From Armatimonadota bacterium (GTDB lineage Bacteria; Sysuimicrobiota; Sysuimicrobiia; Sysuimicrobiales; Sysuimicrobiaceae), in NCBI GenBank assembly GCA_031460175.1, contig JAVKGW010000004.1:123303-187302 (forward strand): 64,000 bases of DNA. The letters run 5' to 3'. Made by a program: the position numbers and the translations under genes. How positions within the stretch are numbered: the first letter of the stretch is position 1; every line of letters starts with the position of its first letter. Under the pieces are notes generated by a model that was not told where the DNA came from, made no database searches, and worked only from the letters and a program-made list of their open reading frames with translations. Shown here one piece after another: positions 44,656-60,865 of the stretch.

Positions 44656-45112
44656 GGGAGGGTCCCCGGATCCGCAGGGCTCGGAGGACGGCCTCCTGCC
44701 GCTCCCACATCCGGGCGCGGTCCGACGCGGCCTCGTCCCGGTAGCCCAGGAGGTGCAGGGTCCCATGCACCGTGAGCAACATGAGCTCCTCGTGGAGAGA
44801 CCATCCCGCCTCCCGGGCCTGCTCCGCCGCCCGGTCCACGGAGATCACCACGTCCCCCAGCACCCAGCGGCCCACGTGCGGTCCCGGTTGAGGGAACGCC
44901 AGGACGTCCGTGGGCTCGTCCCGACCGAGGTAGGTGCGGTTCAGGGCGCGGATGGCGGCGTCGTCTACCAGCACCACGCTCACCTCCACGGGCTCCTCGA
45001 TCCCCTCCTGCCGCAACGTGGCCCGCACCGCCCGCCGGAGGGAGCGCACGTCAACGGGATGGGTGCCCTGATCGTTGCGCACCGCCACGACGCTGCGCCC
45101 GGCGCGCCTCAA
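44636..45112 (-). CDS. ybeY: Endoribonuclease YbeY (16S rRNA maturation)
   Basis: A 158-residue YbeY metalloprotein needed for 16S rRNA 3' processing and ribosome quality control. The zinc motif HGTLHLLGYRDE (His, His, then the third ligand position) is clear, preceded by LNRTYLGRDEPTDVLAFP and LGDVVISVDRA. I take TTG at 45112, which has an excellent GGAGGTGA site but lies 62 bases inside pgpH; GTG at 45088 or 45082 is an alternative. The strong site favours the TTG and translational coupling to PgpH. Confidence 0.92.
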   Translation of the reverse strand: MRRAGRSVVAVRNDQGTHPVDVRSLRRAVRATLRQEGIEEPVEVSVVLVDDAAIRALNRTYLGRDEPTDVLAFPQPGPHVGRWVLGDVVISVDRAAEQAREAGWSLHEELMLLTVHGTLHLLGYRDEAASDRARMWERQEAVLRALRIRGPSHAFPLP

Positions 45113-47150
45113 GGCTCACCTCCGGGTACTCGATGCGGGGGTGGAACATGCCCACCAGGATGCGGGTGAAGGTCTGGGCGATCCGGTCCAGGTCGCGGAG
45201 GGTCAGGTCGCATTCGTCCAGCTGCCCGTCCTCCAGCCGCTCCCGGATCAGCTGGCGCACGAGGGTTCCGATCCGGTCCGGGGTGGGATTCGGGAGGGTG
45301 CGGACCGCGGCCTCCACCGCATCCGCCAGCATGACGATGGCGGTCTCCTTGGATTGGGGCTTGGGGCCCTCGTAGCGGTAGGTCTGCTCGTCCACCGGTC
45401 CCTCCGCGTGCTCCAAGGCCCGGCGGTAGAAGTACGAGATGAGGCTGGTGCCGTGGTGCTCCGGGATGAAGGCCGTCACGGGCCTGGGCAGCCGGTACTG
45501 CCGCGCGAGCTCCAATCCATCCCGCACGTGAGCTGCGACGACCAGGGCGCTGAGGCTGGGGGAGAGGCGGTCGTGCGGGTTGGTGCGGCCCAGCTGGTTC
45601 TCCACGTAGAAAGCCGGCCGCCGGAGTTTGCCGATGTCGTGGTAGTAGGTCCCCACCCGCACCAGCAGGGCATCCGCTCCCACCGCCTCCGCCGCGGCCT
45701 CCGCGAGGTTCGCCACCAGCACCGTGTGGTGGTAGGTGCCGGGAGCCTCCAGCTGCAGGCGGCGCAGGAGGGGATGGCTGGGGTCGCTGAGCTCCAGGAG
45801 CTTGATGGGGGTCACGAGCCCGAACACCTCCTCCAGGTATGGCAGGGCGCCCACCGCGAGAATCCCGGAGAGCAGCCCGTTGAGGGCTCCCCAGCCCGCA
45901 TCGCCCAAAAGCTCCATGAGCGGTGCGCCGGCCACCAGGTCCACCGCGGTCACCGCGAGCGCGTTCGCACCGGCCACCGCGAGCCCCGCGTATGCCAGGT
46001 CCGCCCGGCGCTGCACCCGCCGGATCACGTAAACTCCCGTGAGGCCCCCCACGTAGGCCACCACGCTCATCCGGAGGTCGTTCCCACCCACCACCCCCGT
46101 CAGCAGGGCCAGACTCCCGCCCGCGAAGGAGGCCACCCGGGGGTTCAGGAGGATGGCGAGCAGCATGGTCACGGAGGCCACGGGGACGAGGAACCCGCTG
46201 AGCCGGGTGGCGATGACCCGGCTGCCCACCGCCGCCACCAGGCCCAGCAGGCAGAGAAGGAGGAGGCGCCGTTCATCGGCCCAGATCTCCGGCTGGAATC
46301 GCCAGAGGTACGCGGCTCCCAGCACGACGAGCAACGCGAGGAAGAGGGAAGTTCCCACAACCCCCTCCCACCGGAGGGGCGGGGAGACCAGTCCCAGGGC
46401 CGCCAGCTTCCGGACCTGCTCCGCGGTCACCACGTCTCCCCGCCGCACGATCACCTCCCCCCGCAGGATCCGCTCCCGTACGGGATCCACGCTGGCCCGG
46501 GCCGCCTCCTGCTGCCGCCGGGTCTGCAGGTGATCCACGAAGAGGTTGGGACGCAGCGCCCGCTCCAGGGCCCAGGCCACCAGGGCCCTGGACGGCTCTG
46601 CAAAGGGCAAGCCCTGTGCCAGGGCCTGCCCCCGGGCCTGGGCGGCGGGGAGATCCTCCGCCCGGATCCCCTCCTGCATGAGGCGCCTGAGAAGGGCGAG
46701 GGCGCCGTCGCGCACCCGTTCGAGGTCTGGGCGGCTGAGGGCTTCCGCGGCCCGCAGCGCCGGACCCCGGAGCCCCAGGCGCACCAGCTGCTGCCGGCGC
46801 TCCAGGTCCGTCTGCGGCCGGCGGGATCGGATGCCCCAGATGGCCTCGAAGGCCGCGCGCACGGACTGCTCCGCCTCCCGGGTGGCCACGGAATCCAGGC
46901 GGTAGACGGGGCGCACCGCGGCCGCCGCTTCCTCCCGCAGCCGCGCCGTGCGTTCCCAATCCACGTACTCCACGCTGCGGGGAGCTGCCACCTCGTAGGG
47001 GCTCACCATGCCCTCCCGGAGGGTGACCCGCGGGGGCAGGTACTGCACGGATCCCACCGCGCAGAGGGCCAAGAGGAATCCCCCCAAGAGGAGGACCCGC
47101 CGGAGAGAGACCCGCCCGGGACGGAGGAAGTTCACCCGGATCCGCTCCAT
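45051..47150 (-). CDS. pgpH: 7TM-HD phosphohydrolase, PgpH-type cyclic-di-AMP phosphodiesterase
   Basis: A 699-residue membrane protein: one N-terminal helix, a large extracellular 7TMR-HDED domain (about 40-275), seven membrane helices (about 280-480) and a cytoplasmic HD domain with YYHDIGK (H504, D505), RRPAFYVENQ and EHHGTSLISYFY. PgpH enzymes hydrolyse c-di-AMP to pApA. Full length and all HD residues seen, so it should be active. It heads the ybeY-dgkA-cdd-era block; the phoH gene often found before it is absent here and argR is upstream instead. ATG at 47150 is nine bases after an extended -10 (TGGTACAAT). Confidence 0.9.
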   Translation of the reverse strand: MERIRVNFLRPGRVSLRRVLLLGGFLLALCAVGSVQYLPPRVTLREGMVSPYEVAAPRSVEYVDWERTARLREEAAAAVRPVYRLDSVATREAEQSVRAAFEAIWGIRSRRPQTDLERRQQLVRLGLRGPALRAAEALSRPDLERVRDGALALLRRLMQEGIRAEDLPAAQARGQALAQGLPFAEPSRALVAWALERALRPNLFVDHLQTRRQQEAARASVDPVRERILRGEVIVRRGDVVTAEQVRKLAALGLVSPPLRWEGVVGTSLFLALLVVLGAAYLWRFQPEIWADERRLLLLCLLGLVAAVGSRVIATRLSGFLVPVASVTMLLAILLNPRVASFAGGSLALLTGVVGGNDLRMSVVAYVGGLTGVYVIRRVQRRADLAYAGLAVAGANALAVTAVDLVAGAPLMELLGDAGWGALNGLLSGILAVGALPYLEEVFGLVTPIKLLELSDPSHPLLRRLQLEAPGTYHHTVLVANLAEAAAEAVGADALLVRVGTYYHDIGKLRRPAFYVENQLGRTNPHDRLSPSLSALVVAAHVRDGLELARQYRLPRPVTAFIPEHHGTSLISYFYRRALEHAEGPVDEQTYRYEGPKPQSKETAIVMLADAVEAAVRTLPNPTPDRIGTLVRQLIRERLEDGQLDECDLTLRDLDRIAQTFTRILVGMFHPRIEYPEVSLEARRAQRRGGAQRSGHPSR

Positions 47151-47186: not shown

Positions 47187-47657
47187 TCACGTCCGGCCGA
47201 GCAGGTCCTGGAGCATCCGGATCACCTTGGGTCGGTCTGCCTCCCGCCGCACCACGACCAGGATGGTGTCGTCTCCCGCCACGGTCCCCGCGATCTCCGG
47301 GATGCGGGCCTCGTCTACCGCGATGGCCACCGCGTTCGCCCGACCGCTGAGGGTTTTCACGAGAACGATGGCCTCGCCCTGGTCCACCTCCGTGACGAAG
47401 GCCCGGAAAGCGCTGCGGAGGTTCTCCCAGGCCGCGGGGGGCGGAGTGGTCCGCAGGGCATCCGGGGGCGCGTAGTGATACGTCCCCTCCGGCCCCGCCA
47501 CCTTGACCAGACCCAGCCGCTTGATGTCCCGGGACACCGTGGCCTGCGTGACCCGAAGGCCTCGTTGGCGCAGCGCCCGCACCAACTCCGCCTGGGTGGT
47601 CACGGGACGCGACCGCACGATCTCCAGGATAGCCCGCTCCCTCTGCTGCCGGGTCAA
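47187..47657 (-). CDS. argR: Arginine repressor ArgR
   Basis: A 156-residue ArgR/AhrC. The N-terminal winged helix (ILEIVRSRPVTTQAELVRAL, VTQATVSRDIKRLGLVKV) is followed by the C-terminal hexamerisation and arginine-binding domain, where the aspartates of GTVAGDDTILVVVR contact L-arginine. TTG at 47657 overlaps the argH stop (TTTGA), with GGAG upstream. It is the last arginine gene of the operon that its product probably represses; paired ARG boxes are found at argC and at carA. Confidence 0.94.
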   Translation of the reverse strand: MTRQQRERAILEIVRSRPVTTQAELVRALRQRGLRVTQATVSRDIKRLGLVKVAGPEGTYHYAPPDALRTTPPPAAWENLRSAFRAFVTEVDQGEAIVLVKTLSGRANAVAIAVDEARIPEIAGTVAGDDTILVVVRREADRPKVIRMLQDLLGRT

Positions 47658-49102
47658 AGCCGCTCCGCGAGCAACCTCCCTTCCCGGTACGCCGTGTAGA
47701 TGGGCGGCGGCGCGCACGAGTCCCGCCACCTCCTCACCCCTTCCACCGCCGCCCGGGCCCGCTCCAGCTGCTCCGCCACCCGCGCGGGCGCGGGGCCGCC
47801 GGCCACCGCCCGGGCTTGCACGGATCCCTCCGGGAGAAGGACCTCGTACACGTCCCCCCCCACCTCCGGAGAGCAAGTCCGCAGGACCTCCAACGGGAGC
47901 TCCCAGAGCTCACACCCCCTCGCCTCCGCCTCCCGCACCGCGCGGCCCGCCTGTTCGTGGGCCGTGCGGAAAGGAACGCCGCGCCGCACCAGGTAGTCCG
48001 CCAGGTCCGTGGCGGTCAAAAACCCTTCGTACAGGGCCGCCCGCATCCGATCGGGATGATAGCGCACCCCGCGGGCGAGCACCGCCGCGGCCTGCAAGGA
48101 CCCGGATACGGTGTCGAGGGCATCGAAGAGGGGCTCCTTGTCCTCCTGCAGATCGCTGTTGTAGGTGAGGGGAAGTCCCTTGAGGGCGACGAGCACCGCG
48201 GTCAGAGCTCCGATGGTCCGCCCTGCCTTCCCCCGGATGAGCTCCGCGGCCTCCGGGTTCTTCTTCTGGGGCATGAGGCTGCTGCCCCCCGCCGCGGAAT
48301 CGTCCAGGGAAGCGAACCCGAACTCCCGCGTAGTCCACAGCACCACCTCCTCCGCCCAACGGGAGAGATGCACCTGCAGCACCGCGCACGCGAACAGGGC
48401 TTCCAGCACGTAGTCCCGGTCTGCCACCGCATGCATGCTGTTGGGACAGATCCCCTCGAACCCCAACAGCTCCGCGGTGCGCTCCGGACGCACGGGGTAC
48501 GGGGAAGTGGCGAGGGCCCCCGCGCCGAGGGGAGATAGCCCGCTCACCCGGTGCACCCGACGGAACCGCTCCGCGTCCTGCAGGAGGGCCCACACGTGGG
48601 CCAGGAGGTGATGGGCGAGGGTGGTGGGCTGGGCCCGCTGCAGGTGCGTGTAGCCGGGCAGCACCGTTTCTAGGTGCTCCTGGGCCTGGTCCAGCCAGAC
48701 CTCCACCAGCTCCAGGAGGTGCTCCGCCACCTGCTCCACGGCCTCCCGCACGTACAGGCGCAGGGCGGTGGCCACTTGGTCGTTGCGGCTGCGGGCGGTA
48801 TGGAGCCGGCGGGCAGGCTCCCCGATCCGCTCCACGAGCGTCCGCTCGATCCACGAGTGGACGTCCTCGTCCTCCCCCTCCACCCGGAGGGCACCGGTCT
48901 CCACGTCCCGAAGCATTCCCGCCAGTCCCTGGAGGATCGCCTCCCCGCTTTCCCGGTCCAGGACGCCCACCTCCATTAACATGCGGGCGTGCGCGAGGCT
49001 CCCGACGAGGTCCCAGCGGGCCAGGCGCCGGTCGAAGGGAAAGGAGCGGGTGAAGGCACGGATGCGGGGATCCGGGGGAACCCCGAACCGCCCGCCCCAC
49101 AT
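47654..49102 (-). CDS. argH: Argininosuccinate lyase
   Basis: A 482-residue fumarase/aspartase-superfamily enzyme, the last step to arginine (argininosuccinate to arginine and fumarate). It has MWGGRF at the start, HTARSRNDQVATALRLY, PGYTHLQRAQPTTLAHHLLA, and the superfamily signature GGSSLMPQKKNPEAAELIRGK with the catalytic serine loop. I choose ATG at 49102, where homologues start and where GGGAGG lies six bases upstream; ATG at 49129 has no ribosome site. Confidence 0.96.
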   Translation of the reverse strand: MWGGRFGVPPDPRIRAFTRSFPFDRRLARWDLVGSLAHARMLMEVGVLDRESGEAILQGLAGMLRDVETGALRVEGEDEDVHSWIERTLVERIGEPARRLHTARSRNDQVATALRLYVREAVEQVAEHLLELVEVWLDQAQEHLETVLPGYTHLQRAQPTTLAHHLLAHVWALLQDAERFRRVHRVSGLSPLGAGALATSPYPVRPERTAELLGFEGICPNSMHAVADRDYVLEALFACAVLQVHLSRWAEEVVLWTTREFGFASLDDSAAGGSSLMPQKKNPEAAELIRGKAGRTIGALTAVLVALKGLPLTYNSDLQEDKEPLFDALDTVSGSLQAAAVLARGVRYHPDRMRAALYEGFLTATDLADYLVRRGVPFRTAHEQAGRAVREAEARGCELWELPLEVLRTCSPEVGGDVYEVLLPEGSVQARAVAGGPAPARVAEQLERARAAVEGVRRWRDSCAPPPIYTAYREGRLLAERL

Positions 49103-49130
49103 CCCCGTCCTCCCCCTTCCCGACCTCATC

Positions 49131-50369
49131 TCAGGGTTTTTGGCCCGCGGGGGCCTCGGCCTCCCTGCTGCCCGGGTGCACGGCCGCGAACACCTGAAGC
49201 GGGAGCCCCCACAGCCGGATGAACCCCGTGGCGTCCCGGTGGTCGTAGGCGGCGCCTTCTCCGAAGGTGGCGAGATCCTGGCGGTACAGGGAGTACGGGG
49301 AGGACCGGGAGACGGCCCAGCAGTGTCCCTTGTAGAGCTCCACGGTCACGGTCCCCGTCACGTACCGGTGCGTGCTCTCCAGGAAGGCATCCAAGGCCTC
49401 TCGCAGCGGCGAATACCACAGGCCGGAATACACCAGATCCGCGTACCGGGCCGCCACCAGCTCCTTGAACCGGACCGTGTCCCGGTCCAGGGTGATGGCC
49501 TCCAGGTCCCGCAGGGCCACGGTGAGCACGGTGCCCGCGGGCGTCTCGTACACCCCCCGGCTCTTCATCCCCACCAGCCGGTTCTCCACCATGTCTACCC
49601 GGCCCACGCCGTGGGCCCCTGCCACCCGGTTCAGGTGTCGCACGAGCTCCGCGGGACTCATGCGCACGCCGTCCACGGCCACGGGGATCCCTCGCTCGAA
49701 GGCGATCTCCAGGCGCTGGGGGACATCGGGAGCCCTCCGGGGATCCACGGTGAGCTGGAACATCTCCTCAGGCGGCGGGGTGGAGGGGTCCTCCAGGATT
49801 CCCCCCTCGTAGGAGGTGTGCCACAGGTTCTGATCGATGCTGTAGGGCTTCTCCGCGGTCACGGGGACGGGGATCCCGTGCTCCTCCGCGTAACGGAGCT
49901 CGTCCTCCCGGCTCCGCAGGTCCCACTCCCGCCACGGTGCGATGACCCGCAGGTCCGGCGCGAGCGCCCGATAGCTCAGCTCGAACCGCACCTGATCGTT
50001 GCCCTTGCCCGTACACCCGTGGGCGAGGGCATCGCATCCCGTGGCCCGGGCCACCTCCACCTGCACCTTCGCGATGAGGGGGCGGGCCAGGGCGGTGCCC
50101 AGCAGGTACCGCCCCTCGTACACCGCGCCCGCCCGCAGGGCCCGGAAACAGTAGTCCCGGACGAACTCCTCCCGGACGTCCACCACGTGGAAACCGCTGG
50201 CGCCGCTCTGCAACGCCTTCTGGCGGAGGGCGTCGAAGTCATCGAGCTGCCCTACGTCCGCCACCACCGCCACCACCTCACACCCGTACCGTTCCCGCAA
50301 CCAGGGAATGGCCACGGAGGTATCGAGCCCTCCCGAGTATGCCAGGGCCACCTTCCGCACCCGCTCCAC
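49131..50369 (-). CDS. argG: Argininosuccinate synthase
   Basis: A 412-residue ATP-dependent ligase joining citrulline and aspartate. It opens with KVALAYSGGLDTSVAIPWL (PP-loop), and shows AHGCTGKGNDQVRFEL, AP.REWD...LRSREDELRYAEEHGIP and YSIDQNLWHTSYEGG, all characteristic. The GTG start at 50369 has GAGGTGA upstream, three bases after the argD stop. The ornithine carbamoyltransferase gene that makes its citrulline (argF) is not in this cluster. Confidence 0.96.
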   Translation of the reverse strand: MERVRKVALAYSGGLDTSVAIPWLRERYGCEVVAVVADVGQLDDFDALRQKALQSGASGFHVVDVREEFVRDYCFRALRAGAVYEGRYLLGTALARPLIAKVQVEVARATGCDALAHGCTGKGNDQVRFELSYRALAPDLRVIAPWREWDLRSREDELRYAEEHGIPVPVTAEKPYSIDQNLWHTSYEGGILEDPSTPPPEEMFQLTVDPRRAPDVPQRLEIAFERGIPVAVDGVRMSPAELVRHLNRVAGAHGVGRVDMVENRLVGMKSRGVYETPAGTVLTVALRDLEAITLDRDTVRFKELVAARYADLVYSGLWYSPLREALDAFLESTHRYVTGTVTVELYKGHCWAVSRSSPYSLYRQDLATFGEGAAYDHRDATGFIRLWGLPLQVFAAVHPGSREAEAPAGQKP

Positions 50370-50372
50370 GGC

Positions 50373-51572
50373 TCACCTCGCCTGCACTTTTCCGAGGGCC
50401 CGTTCAAGCCGGACCATCGCCTCGTCCACCTCCGCCTCGGAGACCACGAGGGGTGGGCAGAGCCGCAGGGTATGGGGTCGCACCGCGTTCACCAGCAGTC
50501 CCTCTCCGAGCGCCGCCTCCACCACCGGGGCCGCCTCCACCCGTAGGTCTGCGGCCACCAGGAGCCCCACCCCCCGCACGGACCCAACGGTGGGATTCCG
50601 CTCCGCCAGGGCCCGGAGCCCCTGCAGGAGCCGATCCCCCGCCCGCCGGGCATTCTCCACGAGGCCATCCCGCTCCACCACCTCCAACACCGCGCAGACC
50701 GCGGCACAGGCCAGGGGGTTTCCGCCGAAGGTGCTCCCGTGGTCCCCTGGTCCCAGGTGCCTCGCCACGTCCTCCCGGGCCAGCACCGCGCCCACCGGAA
50801 CCCCACCCGCGAGTCCCTTGCCCAAGGTCACCACGTCCGGCTGGATCCCCTCCCGTTGGAAGGCGAACAGGGCGCCCGTGCGGCCGACTCCCGTCTGGAC
50901 CTCGTCCAGGATCAGCAGTACCCCCCGCTCCCGACAGAGGGCCTCCAGGTCCCGCAGGTACCCCGGAGAAGGGATCACCACGCCACCTTCTCCTTGCACG
51001 GGCTCCACCAGCACCGCACAGGTGCGATCCGTGACGGCGTCCGCCACGGCCCCGAGGTCGTCGTAAGGCACGAACCGGAATCCCGGGGGAAGGGGCTCGA
51101 ATCCCTGCCAGTACCGGGGAGTTCCCGTGGCCGCCAGGGCCCCCAGGGTGCGGCCGTGGAAGCTCCCCTCCATGGTCACGATCTCGTAGGCGTCCGGGCC
51201 CCGCATCCCCCGACCCCATCGCCGGGCCAGCTTGATGGCGGCCTCCACGGCCTCCGCCCCGCTGTTGCAGAAGAAGACCCGGTCCAGCCCGCTGAGCTCC
51301 ACGAGCCGCTTCGCGGCCCGGGCCTGCTCGGGGATGTGGTACAGGTTCGAAACGTGCAGGTAGCGGGAAGCCTGGTCGCACAGGGTCCGCATCAGGTCCG
51401 GGTGTGCGTGCCCGAGGCTGCTGGTGGCGATCCCCGCCACGAAGTCCAGGTACTCCCGACCCCCGAGATCCCACAACCGCACGCCCTCTCCCCGGACGAA
51501 GGCCACGGGCGCCCGCCGGTACGTGCGGAAGAGATATCGGTCCGACCACTCCAGAACCGTCTCGAGGTCCAT
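50373..51572 (-). CDS. argD: Acetylornithine aminotransferase
   Basis: A 399-residue class III aminotransferase: N-acetylglutamate semialdehyde + glutamate to N-acetylornithine. It has GREYLDFVAGIATSSLGHAHP, FFCNSGAEAVEAAIKLAR, GSFHGRTLGALAATG, LILDEVQTGVGRTG and the PLP lysine in VVTLGKGLAGGVPVGAVL. ATG at 51572 directly follows the argB stop. It could also take succinyl-diaminopimelate, as some ArgD do, but operon position fits arginine synthesis. Confidence 0.94.
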   Translation of the reverse strand: MDLETVLEWSDRYLFRTYRRAPVAFVRGEGVRLWDLGGREYLDFVAGIATSSLGHAHPDLMRTLCDQASRYLHVSNLYHIPEQARAAKRLVELSGLDRVFFCNSGAEAVEAAIKLARRWGRGMRGPDAYEIVTMEGSFHGRTLGALAATGTPRYWQGFEPLPPGFRFVPYDDLGAVADAVTDRTCAVLVEPVQGEGGVVIPSPGYLRDLEALCRERGVLLILDEVQTGVGRTGALFAFQREGIQPDVVTLGKGLAGGVPVGAVLAREDVARHLGPGDHGSTFGGNPLACAAVCAVLEVVERDGLVENARRAGDRLLQGLRALAERNPTVGSVRGVGLLVAADLRVEAAPVVEAALGEGLLVNAVRPHTLRLCPPLVVSEAEVDEAMVRLERALGKVQAR

Positions 51573-52448
51573 CTAGCCCTCCGGATGGCGGATCATGGTG
51601 CCGATTCCCGTCTCCGTAAAGAGCTCGATCAGCAAACCGTGAGGCAGGTCCGTGCCGATGATGTGGGCGCTGGGCACACCGCCCGCCAGGGCCTCCAGGC
51701 AGGCTTCCACCTTGGGGATCATCCCCCGGGAGATCACGCCGGAAGCGATGAGCTGCCTCGCCTCCTCCGGGCTGATCTCGCTCAGGAGCTCCCGACGGCC
51801 ATCCACCTCCCGGTACACTCCGGGTACGTCCGTGAGGAGGATGAGCTTCTGGGCCCGCAGGCCTACCGCCAGGGCCGCGGCCGCGGTGTCCGCGTTGAGG
51901 TTGTAGCTCTGGCCGTCCGGGCCGAATCCCAGGGAGGCGACCACGGGAAGGAATCCCGCGTCCAACAGCACCTGTACGATCTCCGGCTCCACCCGCTCCA
52001 CCTCGCCCACGAACCCCAGATCCACCTCCCCCGCCCGCTTGCGGACCTGCAGGAGCCGCGCGTCCTTGCCCGAGAGCCCCACGGCGCGGCCGCCTGCCCT
52101 GTGGATGAGGGTCACCAGGTGCTTGTTCACCCGGCCCGCGAGCACCATCTCCACCACTTCCATGGTCTCCGCGTCCGTGACCCGGAGGCCGTTGACGAAC
52201 CGCGTGGTCTTGCCCAGGCGTTCCAGGGTGCGGGTGATCTCCGGGCCGCCCCCGTGCACCAGCACGGGCCGCACCCCGGCCCGCTGCAGGAGGACGAGGT
52301 CCTCCGGAAGGGTACCCAGCTCTTGAGCGTCCAGGACGCTCCCTCCGAACTTCACGACCACCGTGCGGTCCTTCCAGGCGGCCACGTAGCGCAGGGCATG
52401 GGCCAGAGAGGTCCCGATGCCCGGACTCTCCAGCGGCAGGACGTTCAC
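51573..52448 (-). CDS. argB: Acetylglutamate kinase
   Basis: A 291-residue amino-acid kinase that phosphorylates N-acetylglutamate. It shows VVVKFGGSVLD, PVLVHGGGPEITRTLERLG, RFVNGLRVTD, YNLNADTAAAALAVGL, LILLTDVPGVY and SRGMIPKVEACLEAL. The long N-terminal segment before the kinase core resembles the arginine-sensitive hexameric form, so feedback inhibition is plausible. GTG at 52448 follows GGGAGGAAA. Confidence 0.95.
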   Translation of the reverse strand: MNVLPLESPGIGTSLAHALRYVAAWKDRTVVVKFGGSVLDAQELGTLPEDLVLLQRAGVRPVLVHGGGPEITRTLERLGKTTRFVNGLRVTDAETMEVVEMVLAGRVNKHLVTLIHRAGGRAVGLSGKDARLLQVRKRAGEVDLGFVGEVERVEPEIVQVLLDAGFLPVVASLGFGPDGQSYNLNADTAAAALAVGLRAQKLILLTDVPGVYREVDGRRELLSEISPEEARQLIASGVISRGMIPKVEACLEALAGGVPSAHIIGTDLPHGLLIELFTETGIGTMIRHPEG

Positions 52449-52463
52449 CGCTTTCCTCCCACA

Positions 52464-53672
52464 CTAGGTGATGTAGGCGCCGTTCAGGCGCACGTACTCC
52501 TCGCTAAGATCGCACGTCCACACCCACCACCGCCCGCTCCCCACCCCCAGGTCCACCCGCAAGGTGACCTCGGAATCCCGCAAGGCTTGCGCGCCCTGCC
52601 CGAGGGCTTCCGGAATCCCCACCCCGTCCTGTACCACCAGGACCGGCCCGAACCAGACGCGCGTCCTGGACTCCTCCAGGGCCACCCCGGCCCGACCCAC
52701 CGCCGCCAGGACCCTTCCCCAGTTCGGCTCCCCGCCATGCAGCATGGTCTTTACCAGAAGGGAGGTCGCCACGGTGTAGGCGGCCCTCCGGGCCTCTGCC
52801 TCGTCCAGGGCGCCCGTGACCTCCACCCGCACGAGCCGCGTGGCTCCCTCCCCGTCCCGCACCACCATCTTCGCCAGCTCCTCCGCCACCGCGGTGAGGG
52901 CCGCGCAGAACCGCCTGTAGGCTTCTCCCTCCTCCGCGGCGATTCCGGACTGGCCGTTCGCCAGGACGATGAGGCTGTCGTTCGTGCTGGTGTCCCCGTC
53001 CACGGTGATGCGGTTGAAGGAGACCTCTGCCGCCCCCCGCAGCGCCTCCCGCAGCCGTCCGGGAGAGATGCGGGCGTCCGTGGTGAGGAAGCACAGGGTG
53101 GTGGCGAGTTGGGGGTGGATCATCCCCGCGCCCTTCGCGATCCCCCCCACGGTCACCACGCCCTCCGGAAGGCGGACCTGGGCCGCGGCCCGCTTGGGGA
53201 AGGCGTCCGTGGTGAGGATGGCTTCCGCCGCGGCCTCGCCGCTCCGCTCCAGGGCCCGCACCGCCTGCGGGATCCCCCGCCGGATGGCTTCCATGGGAAG
53301 CGGGACGCCGATCACCCCCGTGCTGCACACCAACACGTGGGAACGCGGGATGCCAAGCGCCCGGGCCGTGATCTCCGCCATCTCGTAGGCGTCCCGGAGT
53401 CCCTGAGGACCCGTGCAGGCGTTGGCGTTCCCGCTGTTCACCACGATGGCCTGCGCGACCCCTCCGGACAGGGTTTCCTCACAGTACCGCACGGGGGCCG
53501 CCTTCACCCGGTTGGTGGTAAACAGCCCCGCCGCGGAAGCGGGGACCTCCGAGTAGAGGAGGGCCAGGTCCCGCCGCTGTTGCTTGATCCCGCAGTGCAC
53601 CCCCGCGGCGAGGAAGCCGTGCGGGCTCGTGACGTCTCCGGGAATGAGGGTGATGGGCTCAGGGGTCTCCAT
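52464..53672 (-). CDS. argJ: Bifunctional ornithine acetyltransferase / N-acetylglutamate synthase
   Basis: A 402-residue OAT-family Ntn-type enzyme that recycles the acetyl group from acetylornithine to glutamate. It shows NSGNANACTGPQG, CSTGVIGVPLP, KGAGMIHPQLA, then T191 which is the self-cleavage nucleophile (ATTLC), and SFNRITVDGDTSTNDS. A functional ArgJ explains the absence of argE in this cluster. The start is the ATG at 53672, five bases past the argC stop, with a weak ribosome site. Confidence 0.95.
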   Translation of the reverse strand: METPEPITLIPGDVTSPHGFLAAGVHCGIKQQRRDLALLYSEVPASAAGLFTTNRVKAAPVRYCEETLSGGVAQAIVVNSGNANACTGPQGLRDAYEMAEITARALGIPRSHVLVCSTGVIGVPLPMEAIRRGIPQAVRALERSGEAAAEAILTTDAFPKRAAAQVRLPEGVVTVGGIAKGAGMIHPQLATTLCFLTTDARISPGRLREALRGAAEVSFNRITVDGDTSTNDSLIVLANGQSGIAAEEGEAYRRFCAALTAVAEELAKMVVRDGEGATRLVRVEVTGALDEAEARRAAYTVATSLLVKTMLHGGEPNWGRVLAAVGRAGVALEESRTRVWFGPVLVVQDGVGIPEALGQGAQALRDSEVTLRVDLGVGSGRWWVWTCDLSEEYVRLNGAYIT

Positions 53673-53677
53673 GGCGC

Positions 53678-54709
53678 CTATGGGAAGAGGGGAGGCAACT
53701 GGAGTCCTTCCGTCTCCGGGAGCCCGAACATCAGGTTCATGCACTGGATGGCCTGCCCCGCGGCTCCTTTCCCGAGGTTGTCCAGGGCCGCGATGGCGAT
53801 GGCGACCCCGCGCTCCGCATCCACCCGCACCGTCACATCGCAGAAGTTGGAGCCAAAGGTGGCCTTCGTCTGCGGGAGATCCCGCTCGAGCACCCGCACG
53901 AAGGGCTCTCCCGCGTAGGCCTCCCGGTACAGGTCCAGGGCGGCCGGGCCGTCCAGGGGACGGGAGAGCCGCACGTAGCAGGTGGCGAGGATCCCCCGGG
54001 TCATGGGGATGAGGTGGGGGACGAAGCACACCGCGGCGGGACAACCCGCCTCCGCCAGGGCCTGCTCCATCTCGGGGACGTGGCGGTGATGGGCCACGTG
54101 GTACGGGCGCACGTTCTCGTTGATCTCGCTGAAGTGGGTGTCCAGGGACGCCCCCCGGCCAGCACCCGAAACCCCGGACTTGGCGTCCACCACCACGGGA
54201 CCGCTCCCGTACCCCGCCCGCAGGAGCGGCACCAGACCGAGCAGGGCCGCCGTGGGGTAACAGCCCGGAACCGCCACGAGGTTCGCCTCCCGGATGCGGC
54301 TCCGGTGGAGCTCCGGGAGTCCGTAGACCGCCTCCTCCAACAGGTGCACGGCCGTGTGCTCCTGCCTGTACCACCGGGCATACTGGGCGGGATCCCGCAG
54401 ACGGAAGTCCGGCCCCAGGTCCACCACCCGGGCGCCCGCAGACAGGATCTCGGGCGCGGCTTTGAGAGCGAGTCCGTGCGGGAGCGCCAGGAACACCACG
54501 TCGCTCTCCTGCGCCAGCTTCCGCCAGTCCGGCTCCTCCAGGGGCTTGCGCACGAATCCTTCCAGGTGGGGGAAGGCCTCCGGGAGGAGCTTGCCCCGGT
54601 GCTGGTCCGCGGTGAGGTGCACCAGCTCCACCCGGGGATGGCGCACCAGCCACCGCACCAGCTCCCCTCCCGTATACCCGCTCGCGCCGGCCACGCTCGC
54701 CCGGATCAT
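53678..54709 (-). CDS. argC: N-acetyl-gamma-glutamyl-phosphate reductase
   Basis: A 343-residue NADPH-dependent reductase, third step of arginine synthesis. It opens with IRASVAGASGYTGGELVRWL (nucleotide loop), has the catalytic cysteine C150 in VPGCYPTAA, and HHRHVPEM with the histidine base. First gene of argCJBDGHR. The ATG at 54709 lies six bases after a -10-like hexamer, with no ribosome site, and two ARG boxes cover the promoter up to the base just before it, so it is probably a leaderless, ArgR-repressed message. Confidence 0.95.
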   Translation of the reverse strand: MIRASVAGASGYTGGELVRWLVRHPRVELVHLTADQHRGKLLPEAFPHLEGFVRKPLEEPDWRKLAQESDVVFLALPHGLALKAAPEILSAGARVVDLGPDFRLRDPAQYARWYRQEHTAVHLLEEAVYGLPELHRSRIREANLVAVPGCYPTAALLGLVPLLRAGYGSGPVVVDAKSGVSGAGRGASLDTHFSEINENVRPYHVAHHRHVPEMEQALAEAGCPAAVCFVPHLIPMTRGILATCYVRLSRPLDGPAALDLYREAYAGEPFVRVLERDLPQTKATFGSNFCDVTVRVDAERGVAIAIAALDNLGKGAAGQAIQCMNLMFGLPETEGLQLPPLFP

Positions 54710-54744
54710 GGCATAACCATACAGGAAACTGCATGATGTTGCAA
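54710..54744 (-). promoter_or_regulatory. argC promoter with two ARG boxes (ArgR operator)
   Basis: Against the core TGNAT-N4-ATNCA, box 1 is GGCAT-AACC-ATACA (54710-54723) and box 2 is TGCAT-GATG-TTGCA (54730-54743); each has one mismatch. Their centres are exactly 20 bases apart, as expected for an ArgR hexamer bound to two adjacent boxes. On the minus strand TTGCAA (54744-54739) and TATGGT (54721-54716), with a 17-base spacer, form the promoter, so both boxes cover it. The -10 ends six bases before the argC ATG. Confidence 0.75.
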
Positions 54745-59400: not shown

Positions 59401-59599
59401 CGATGTAGATGCGATCCGCCACCTCCGGATCCGTCATGATGGTGGCGGGGTTGCTGTTGACGAGCACCACCTCCACCCCTTCCTCCGAGAGGGCCCGACA
59501 GGCCTGGGAACCCGAGTAGTCGAACTCCGCGGCCTGCCCGATGGTGATGGGGCCGGAGCCGATCACCAGGACCTTGCGGATGTCCGGCCGCCGCGGCAC
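56405..59599 (-). CDS. carB: Carbamoyl-phosphate synthase large subunit
   Basis: A 1,064-residue CarB with two ATP-grasp halves. Half one opens with [22 protein letters not shown] and has [20 protein letters not shown]; half two has [19 protein letters not shown] and [21 protein letters not shown]. The C-terminal MGS-like allosteric domain (about 940-1064) has [12 protein letters not shown]. It makes carbamoyl phosphate for arginine and pyrimidines. GTG at 59599 overlaps the carA stop (TAGTG). Full length, with no missing motifs. Confidence 0.97.
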
Positions 59600-60693
59600 T
59601 AGCGCACCCCGACCTGCTGGGCCACGTCCCCCAGGAACCGGTCGAAGAGGTCCCGGCTGTCCCGGGGACCGGGGCGGGCTTCCGGGTGGAACTGCACGGA
59701 CCAGATGGGGAGGTGCTGGTGCCGGATCCCCTCCACGGTGCCGTCATGGAGGTTCCTGTGGGTGACGACAAACCCCGTGTCCCTTAGACTCGCTTCGTCC
59801 ACCGCGTAGCTGTGGTTCTGCGTGGTGATGCGCACCCGGCCCGTGGTGGTCTCCAGCACCGGGTGGTTCGAACCCCGGTGTCCGAAGGGAAGCTTGAAGG
59901 TCCTCGCTCCCGCGGCCCGGGCCAGGACCTGGTGCCCTAGGCAGATGCCGAAGATGGGGAGCTGGCCGAAGAGGGTCCGGAGCCGGCGGGCCACCGCGTC
60001 CAGATGCCGGGGGTCTCCCGGACCGTTCCCCACCACGAGACCCGCGGGTCGGAGCTCCAGGATCTCCTCCACCTCCACCCGTCCGGGGAGCACGATCACC
60101 TCGCATCCCCGGGCATGGAGCTCCCGGGCGATCCCCATCTTCACCCCGCAGTCCAGAACCGCGATGCGGGGGCCCGATCCCGGGAGGACCACGGCTTCCT
60201 CCGGCAGCACCTCCGCCACCAGATCCTCCTCCGCGAGGTCCGGGAGGGACCGGGCCCGGGCAACGAGCTCTTCGGGATCCCGGTCCCCGGTGGCGATCAC
60301 CCCCCGCCGGAGCCCGTGGGTCCGCAGGTGACGCACGATCCGCCGGGTGTCCACCTCCGCGATGGCCACGACCCCGTGCCCGCGCAGGTACTCGGAGAGG
60401 GGAATCCGGCCGGCCCAGTGGCTGGTGTAGGGGCTCGCCTCCCGCACCACGAACCCCCGCAAAAAGGGCCGGCGGGACTCGCTCCACTCTGGGTCCACCC
60501 CGTAGGTGCCCATCATGGGGAAGCTCATCACCACGATCTGGCCCGCGTAACTGGGATCCGTGAGCACCTCCGGATAACCGGCCATGCTGGTGGTGAACAC
60601 CACTTCCCCGCCGGAGAGTCCCTCCGCCCCGATGGAGACTCCCCGCACCACCAGGCCGTCCTCCAGGGCCAGCCATCCCGTATGCATGTTCAT
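59599..60693 (-). CDS. carA: Carbamoyl-phosphate synthase small subunit (glutaminase)
   Basis: A 364-residue CarA that supplies ammonia from glutamine. It shows [34 protein letters not shown], the class I amidotransferase nucleophile in [11 protein letters not shown], and the His-Glu pair in [13 protein letters not shown] choose ATG at 60693; ATG at 60687 is the alternative. The ATG is seven bases after TGATACAAT and lies inside an ARG box, with no ribosome site, so the mRNA is likely leaderless and ArgR-controlled. Confidence 0.95.
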
Positions 60694-60729
60694 GCAACGG
60701 ATTGTATCATTATGCACACGAGGGGTAAA
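60683..60729 (-). promoter_or_regulatory. carA promoter with two perfect ARG boxes spanning the start codon
   Basis: Two exact matches to TGNAT-N4-ATNCA: TGCAT-GTTC-ATGCA (60683-60696) and TGTAT-CATT-ATGCA (60703-60716), plus strand. Their centres are 20 bases apart, the same as at argC. The promoter on the minus strand is TTTACC (60729-60724), a 17-base spacer, then the extended -10 TGATACAAT ending at 60701. The carA ATG at 60693 is within the first box. ArgR-arginine bound here should block polymerase directly. Confidence 0.8.
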
Positions 60730-60733
60730 GAGA

Positions 60734-60760
60734 ACGCCCGCGTTCCCTTCCCGCGGGCGT
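60734..60760 (-). terminator. Intrinsic terminator after the glycosidase gene
   Basis: A perfect 9-bp hairpin (ACGCCCGCG/CGCGGGCGT) with a 9-base loop. On the minus strand it is followed by TTCTCTTTACC, a T-rich run. It lies 106 bases after the stop of the glycosidase gene and directly before the carA -35, so it isolates carAB from upstream transcription. The T tract is imperfect. Confidence 0.6.
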
Positions 60761-60865
60761 ACGGATTCTTCTCTCGCCTCCATCGCTCCCTCCCGGAGAG
60801 CATTAATGGTCGGCCCTGCTTGCTTGGAATCTAGCAGATCCGGGAGGGCGGCGCAACGGCATCCT

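Follow-up and report, generated by a model that had tools for sequence, protein, structure and literature searches.

Tandem ARG boxes on the predicted argC promoter of a Sysuimicrobiota genome and its relatives

Two tandem ARG boxes directly precede argC in the stretch of 64,000 nucleotides analysed here (the window), and their presence is confirmed to be beyond chance expectation. We consider it very likely that this pair is an ArgR operator which doubles as the argC promoter, that ArgR represses argC by exclusion of the polymerase, that argC has a leaderless start and that carAB is co-regulated. At high arginine levels a single hexamer of ArgR with bound arginine would sit on both argC boxes, cover the -35 and the -10 elements and exclude RNA polymerase. 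The argCJBDGHR operon would then be shut off including argR itself, which amounts to a negative feedback loop. When arginine falls, ArgR would leave the argC boxes, and upon its release transcription would start with the A of the argC ATG or a neighbouring base and give a leaderless mRNA. We infer from the sequence that ArgR binds and does so in dependence on arginine, that the operon is transcribed as a unit, where transcription starts and that translation is leaderless. The features concerned are collected in Table 1.

Table 1. Positions of genes, ARG boxes, predicted promoter elements and leader hairpins in the window.
Feature	Position	Strand	Remarks
argC ARG box 1	54730..54743	(-)	TGCAACATCATGCA, one mismatch; pair kept in 38/40 genomes
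argC ARG box 2	54710..54723	(-)	TGTATGGTTATGCC, one mismatch; abuts argC start codon
Predicted argC -35	54739..54744	(-)	TTGCAA; overlaps box 1; TTG here in 39/40 genomes
Predicted argC -10	54716..54721	(-)	TATGGT; inside box 2; ends 6 nt before ATG
argC	53678..54709	(-)	PF01118/PF22698; first gene; ATG 54709-54707; start from alignment of relatives
argJ	52464..53672	(-)	PF01960
argB	51573..52448	(-)	PF00696, amino acid kinase; name inferred from operon
argD	50373..51572	(-)	PF00202, class-III aminotransferase; name inferred from operon
argG	49131..50369	(-)	PF00764/PF20979
argH	47654..49129	(-)	PF00206/PF14698
argR	47187..47657	(-)	PF01316 and PF02863; TTG start
carA ARG box 1	60703..60716	(-)	TGCATAATGATACA, perfect; end overlaps -10
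carA ARG box 2	60683..60696	(-)	TGCATGAACATGCA, perfect; covers likely start codon ATG 60693-60691
Predicted ArgR-controlled carA promoter	60701..60729	(-)	TTTACC (60729-60724), 17 bp, TACAAT (60706-60701)
carA	59599..60693	(-)	PF00988/PF00117; in-frame ATG 60783 would add 30 residues
PyrR-like hairpin	60780..60809	(-)	CCAUUAAUGCUCUCCGGGAGGGAGCGAUGG; holds Shine-Dalgarno-like GGGAGG and ATG at 60783
Terminator-like hairpin	60726..60760	(-)	9-bp stem, then UUCUCUUUA; U-rich tail overlaps -35 of ArgR promoter
Possible upstream carA promoter	60828..60856	(-)	TTGCGC (60856-60851), 17 bp, TAGATT (60833-60828); by eye, weak

The box pair and the predicted promoter of argC

On the minus strand the sequence 5' of argC is TTGCAACATCATGCA-GTTTCC-TGTATGGTTATGCC-ATG. 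The two boxes of the original prediction, each with one mismatch to TGNAT-N4-ATNCA, can be read directly from it, and their centres (54736.5 and 54716.5) are indeed 20 bp apart. All scans were done with this consensus, and the null sequences for the window, argC and carA were first-order Markov resamplings rather than exact dinucleotide shuffles. Single boxes alone prove nothing; it is the pairing that counts. The window contains five sites with at most one mismatch, compared with a mean of 4.7 in 30 Markov sequences, and the whole genome contains 173 such single-box sites versus 85 for the reversed pattern. Of the five sites in the window, four fall in two pairs, one at argC and one at carA, and box pairs 15-25 bp apart did not occur in any of the 30 Markov sequences. 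Two boxes in the window are perfect, against a Markov mean of 0.13.

The order to which the window belongs is represented by 43 genomes. argC was found in 41 of them, with no match in G011 and G041, and the upstream DNA was usable for 40; the row of G019, whose contig stops at argC, was dropped, and so was a weak second match in G006. Between -200 and +40 of argC the best tandem pair has no more than four mismatches in total in 38 of the 40 genomes and no more than two in 19, and two regions (G029, G038) score five mismatches. Four or fewer mismatches were reached in 0.8% of 4000 Markov resamplings and in none of the 40 reversed sequences. The distance between the box centres is 20 bp in 34 genomes and 21 bp in six. 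In the sister species the argC box region differs from that of the window at one base between the boxes, and the DNA further upstream has diverged.

That the boxes cover the -35 and the -10 of argC, as had been proposed, holds for predicted hexamers, whose register on the boxes is conserved across the 40 genomes. The two hexamers are separated by a spacer of 17 bp and match the consensus at 8 of 12 positions. This is below the cut-off of a simple promoter scan of the window, which did not list the argC promoter, and the promoter call is supported by its conservation instead. The almost invariant TTG is made up of the letter before box 1 and the first two letters of that box, and the hexamer that begins with the third letter of box 2 matches TATAAT at four or more positions in 35 of the 40 argC regions. 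Since the hexamer register is fixed on the boxes, the box spacing of 20 bp results in the promoter spacer of 17 bp. For G029, where the script picked another box pair, the register was read by eye. As predicted from these alignments, operator and promoter of argC are one element in the order. In four genomes of family f5 (G014, G026, G038, G040) the argC pairs are box-like but a -10 is missing from the usual register, and the promoter may be shifted there.

Hexamers such as TTGCAT and TATAAT resemble ARG half-sites, and the palindromes could in principle be a promoter alone to which no repressor binds. The letters of boxes and hexamers do overlap almost fully, and selection on the promoter would by itself keep a part of each box conserved. 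However, the half-site of box 1 which contains no hexamer (ATNCA) is conserved as well among the 40 argC rows, tandem pairs are found in the genome at argC, carA and one other place only, and the carA boxes of the window are perfect though they stand in a different register to the hexamers. We regard a promoter without repressor as very improbable and prefer an operator for ArgR.

A mode of action other than polymerase exclusion, namely activation by ArgR or a transcription roadblock formed by it, hardly deserves any weight in our judgement. Some genes are known to be activated by ArgR/AhrC in other bacteria (PMC3293853). The argC boxes, however, sit on both hexamers as in repressed promoters, and ArgR was judged to be a poor roadblock (PMC6640053). 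Exclusion of the polymerase is the most likely mode of action.

The arginine operon, its repressor and the genome-wide scan

The gene order according to Pfam is argC-argJ-argB-argD-argG-argH-argR, which bears out the earlier statement that argR is the seventh gene of the argC operon. This argR is the only ArgR found in its genome. The encoded protein comprises both family domains, contains VTQATVSRDIK and GTVAGDDTI and can be aligned along its length with ArgR-type repressors of solved structure (best E 1.4e-25). Its best PDB match is 1f9n, which we take to be AhrC of B. subtilis. One ArgR gene each is present in 39 of the 43 genomes of the order; none was found in G008, G019, G022 and G032, which are 85-93% complete, and in three of these (G008, G022, G032) the argC boxes are present although ArgR was not found. 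The spacing had been read as that of two ArgR half-hexamers bound side by side. The conserved pair and the two ArgR domains support an ArgR operator, and the spacing of 20 bp corresponds to the form with a gap of 2 bp, which is 1 bp below what is usual in E. coli.

Among the best named argC relatives are those of MAGs filed under Armatimonadetes SKYB51, with 69% identity, and under Terrabacteria group ANGP1, with 59%. ANGP1 is currently assigned by NCBI to Candidatus Sysuimicrobiota, to which the window would belong as well. About 36 bp past argR a gene of the 7TM-HD phosphohydrolase type is located (45051-47150, minus strand), which has TACAAT 9 nt before its ATG and is possibly another near-leaderless start.

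The genome (2.49 Mb in 18 contigs, 98.9% complete) was scanned for the tandem pattern with a spacing of 20 bp and up to three mismatches. This revealed three places, namely carA (no mismatch), argC (two) and C5:108048 (three), and the reversed pattern gave none in the same scan. Two of the three tandem sites thus belong to arginine or carbamoyl-phosphate genes. A scan with a spacing of 21 bp returned the doubtful place C5:108048 alone. Hits at arg, car and argF genes had been expected from such a scan; argC and carA were recovered, but the argF-type gene is without a tandem box and one doubtful locus comes in addition. The argF-type gene at C3:95475 is of the ornithine-carbamoyltransferase type (PF00185), is by inference argF and belongs to an operon separate from that of argC. 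Its 3.5-kb locus (L019), which begins 28 nt before the next gene upstream, contains no box with less than two mismatches, and the genome scan gave no tandem site there.

C5:108048 was not accepted as a sure regulon member and is considered doubtful, because its second box is a poor one, the flanking DNA is likewise conserved and no Pfam family was hit. It adjoins an orphan ORF of 140 amino acids (L003 1075-1534), and one of its boxes is perfect; this box shows changes at free positions only in the sister species. The orphan ORF is present in two of the seven genomes of the family.

Leader length at argC

The start codons of argC were chosen by a rule that prefers ATG near the aligned start. 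Counted from the last base of the -10, the start codon lies at a distance of 6-7 nt in 14 of the 40 argC regions (13 by script and G029 by eye), of 9-11 nt in five and of 26-85 nt in 21. The distribution is bimodal with nothing between 12 and 25 nt, given the reading of G029 by eye (6 nt, as opposed to 16 by script). With initiation about 7 nt after the -10, as is generally the case, the argC transcript of the window would start at the A of the ATG. Because box 2 abuts the ATG, with the -10 ending 6 nt upstream of this codon, argC of the window is probably leaderless.

It would also be conceivable that ArgR binds to the boxes while argC is not leaderless, either because an in-frame GTG 63 nt upstream (54772) is the true start or because the transcript begins further upstream and the gene has an ordinary leader. 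Such an in-frame GTG does exist upstream of the argC ATG, and the distances of at least 26 nt in 21 of the 40 relatives point in the same direction. In contrast, the 80 nt before the argC ATG of the sister species (G001) contain no in-frame start codon, and in-frame stops are located 15-51 nt before the aligned start in the short-distance genomes G017, G010 and G022. The conserved promoter moreover ends so close to the ATG (6 nt) that no room is left for a Shine-Dalgarno sequence. A start with a leader is on this evidence unlikely for the window, and a leaderless argC is the reading that we follow.

The short and long leader states require five parsimony changes, three of which are forced by well-supported branches, when mapped onto a tree calculated from the 40 ArgC proteins; the tree was made by a quick method with SH-aLRT support only, and gain and loss are indistinguishable. 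Outside the order an abutting pair was recognized by eye at three loci (L072, L090 and L073, titled Acidimicrobiia, Acidimicrobiaceae and Actinobacteria, respectively) in a survey of 40 hand-chosen loci out of 80 named argC loci, several of which fall within the window's own order. A literature search revealed no paper linking ARG box, ArgR and leaderless, and in the extract of PMC3415461, which matched argC, leaderless and ArgR, a leaderless argC is not reported.

carA and comparison with known systems

In the proposed mechanism carAB would be co-regulated through the second box pair, which in the genus of the window is located one box further downstream than at argC, on the -10 and the start codon. 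The ArgR-type promoter of carA is the one promoter-like site listed in 45-64 kb, where shuffles average 0.7, and is therefore weak by itself. The carA set comprises 33 genes after removal of weak matches to paralogues and, in G012 and G037, of the second piece of a carA gene split over contigs. A pair with at most three mismatches is present in 26 of the 33 genomes, compared with none of 3300 resamplings and none of 33 reversed sequences, and 22 of the 26 pairs have TTG at the place corresponding to argC. In their layout G001 and G003 look like the window, and G008 is similar. Boxes downstream of the start site repress poorly in E. coli, and at lrp of E. coli a deletion which placed boxes immediately downstream resulted in arginine-dependent repression (PMC6640053). 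Given this lrp result, the repression geometry of the window carA is plausible but not assured.

The seven carA genes without a pair all belong to family f2 (L183, L184, L185, L181, L186, L199, L201), and the hairpin leader is present there. In G013, where carA and argC share a contig, a box pair stands between the two genes.

The carA leader of the window contains in addition a PyrR-like and a terminator-like hairpin, and the stretch has a folding z of -3.1. The terminator scan of the window did not list the carA stem, whose loop of 9 exceeds the limit of 8, nor did the simple promoter scan list the possible upstream promoter. The hairpin pattern was found at 27 sites in 25 of the 43 genomes, and the reversed pattern at none. 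Twenty-five of these sites precede carA, at 91-322 nt, and the other two precede genes of the orotidine-5'-phosphate decarboxylase family. Sixteen of the 27 sites are included in the alignment of the hairpin. Read by eye, the second base pair in the upper stem is C-G in the genus of the window and A-U in f7; f2 has G-C with a bulged base, and G009 and G011 have no pairing at this position.

The core consensus of PyrR sites is CCNGNGAGG, with a loop of the CNGNGA type. The hairpin loop fits this core and has U as its first letter in the window. A PyrR gene is encoded in the window genome (NF003549, 249 bits versus a cut-off of 138). A comparison of the carA leader with Rfam gave no hit at the gathering threshold; the matches obtained otherwise were far below the curated scores, and the PyrR family was not matched. 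In six of the 25 genomes, that of the window included, the ATG of the hairpin is in frame with carA and its reading frame runs into the gene without a stop; in the other 19 this ATG opens a leader ORF of 12-87 codons. The window carA has two in-frame ATGs 90 nt apart, 60783 in the hairpin and 60693 on ARG box 2.

These features suggest that carAB is probably expressed from an upstream transcript controlled by pyrimidines and a downstream promoter controlled by arginine, which would follow the P1/P2 logic of E. coli with other parts. In E. coli the carAB operon has an upstream promoter and an ArgR-controlled downstream promoter (PMC6245113), and the likeness of the window to it is our reading of the leader. 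P1 is controlled by PepA, PurR, RutR and IHF (PMC6245113), whereas the window would use a PyrR-like hairpin and a terminator. The boxes at carP2 are described as partly overlapping the -35 (PMC6245113), in which they differ from the boxes of the window.

A further picture is a doubtful one, to be taken as tentative: an operator-promoter that stays nearly fixed in the order during about five leader switches, together with two stacked controls at carA in the genus of the window and a CarA with two N-termini. In this stack the tail of the PyrR-type hairpin and terminator would be the -35 of the next promoter, and the second box of the ArgR promoter would cover the start codon. If this is true, the pyrimidine-controlled and the arginine-controlled transcripts would give CarA proteins with different N-termini.

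At argC of S. clavuligerus two ARG 18-mers with a gap of 2 bp, which is 20 bp from centre to centre, were footprinted, and this arrangement is described as conserved in Streptomyces (PMC3293853). The window argC has the same spacing of 20 bp as Streptomyces argC (S. clavuligerus argCJBDR; S. coelicolor argC and argG; PMC3293853, PMC5839063). The pair of S. coelicolor argG reaches the start codon (distances 18 and -2; PMC5839063, Table 1), and its letters read by eye give TTGCAT and CATACT with a 17-bp spacer; the register is that of the window argC, and the ATG follows 6 nt on. In contrast to Streptomyces, the window belongs to another phylum, its operon includes argG and argH, and its relatives carry the same pair with and without a leader.

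In E. coli the gap between ARG boxes is 3 bp (21 bp from centre to centre) with the exception of argR (PMC3293853), and the arginine operators as a rule partly overlap the -10 and/or the -35 (PMC6640053). The tandem boxes of E. coli argCBH, argF and carAB P2 overlap promoter elements like those of the window argC, and binding of ArgR and RNA polymerase at carAB P2 is mutually exclusive (PMC6245113). Boxes in Bacillus are normally 2 bp apart (PMC5839063); the argC gene of B. subtilis, unlike that of the window, has boxes 11 bp apart and a third one in the gene (PMC3293853). The operator of the window argC belongs to the known type of ArgR operators, and less usual is that it abuts the first codon.

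The phylum is described as one that 'has not been cultivated' (PMC11604079, from 2024), and a term search of that text found no arginine, ArgR or promoter. The results extend the ArgR operator, including its exact geometry, to the uncultivated phylum Sysuimicrobiota. The set of 40 promoters indicates that the leader can change behind an operator-promoter which itself remains in place, and the start-site predictions made from these promoters are testable on metatranscriptomes. The carA leader suggests that the separate control of carAB by pyrimidines and arginine, which is known from E. coli, may also be built with parts of the PyrR type.
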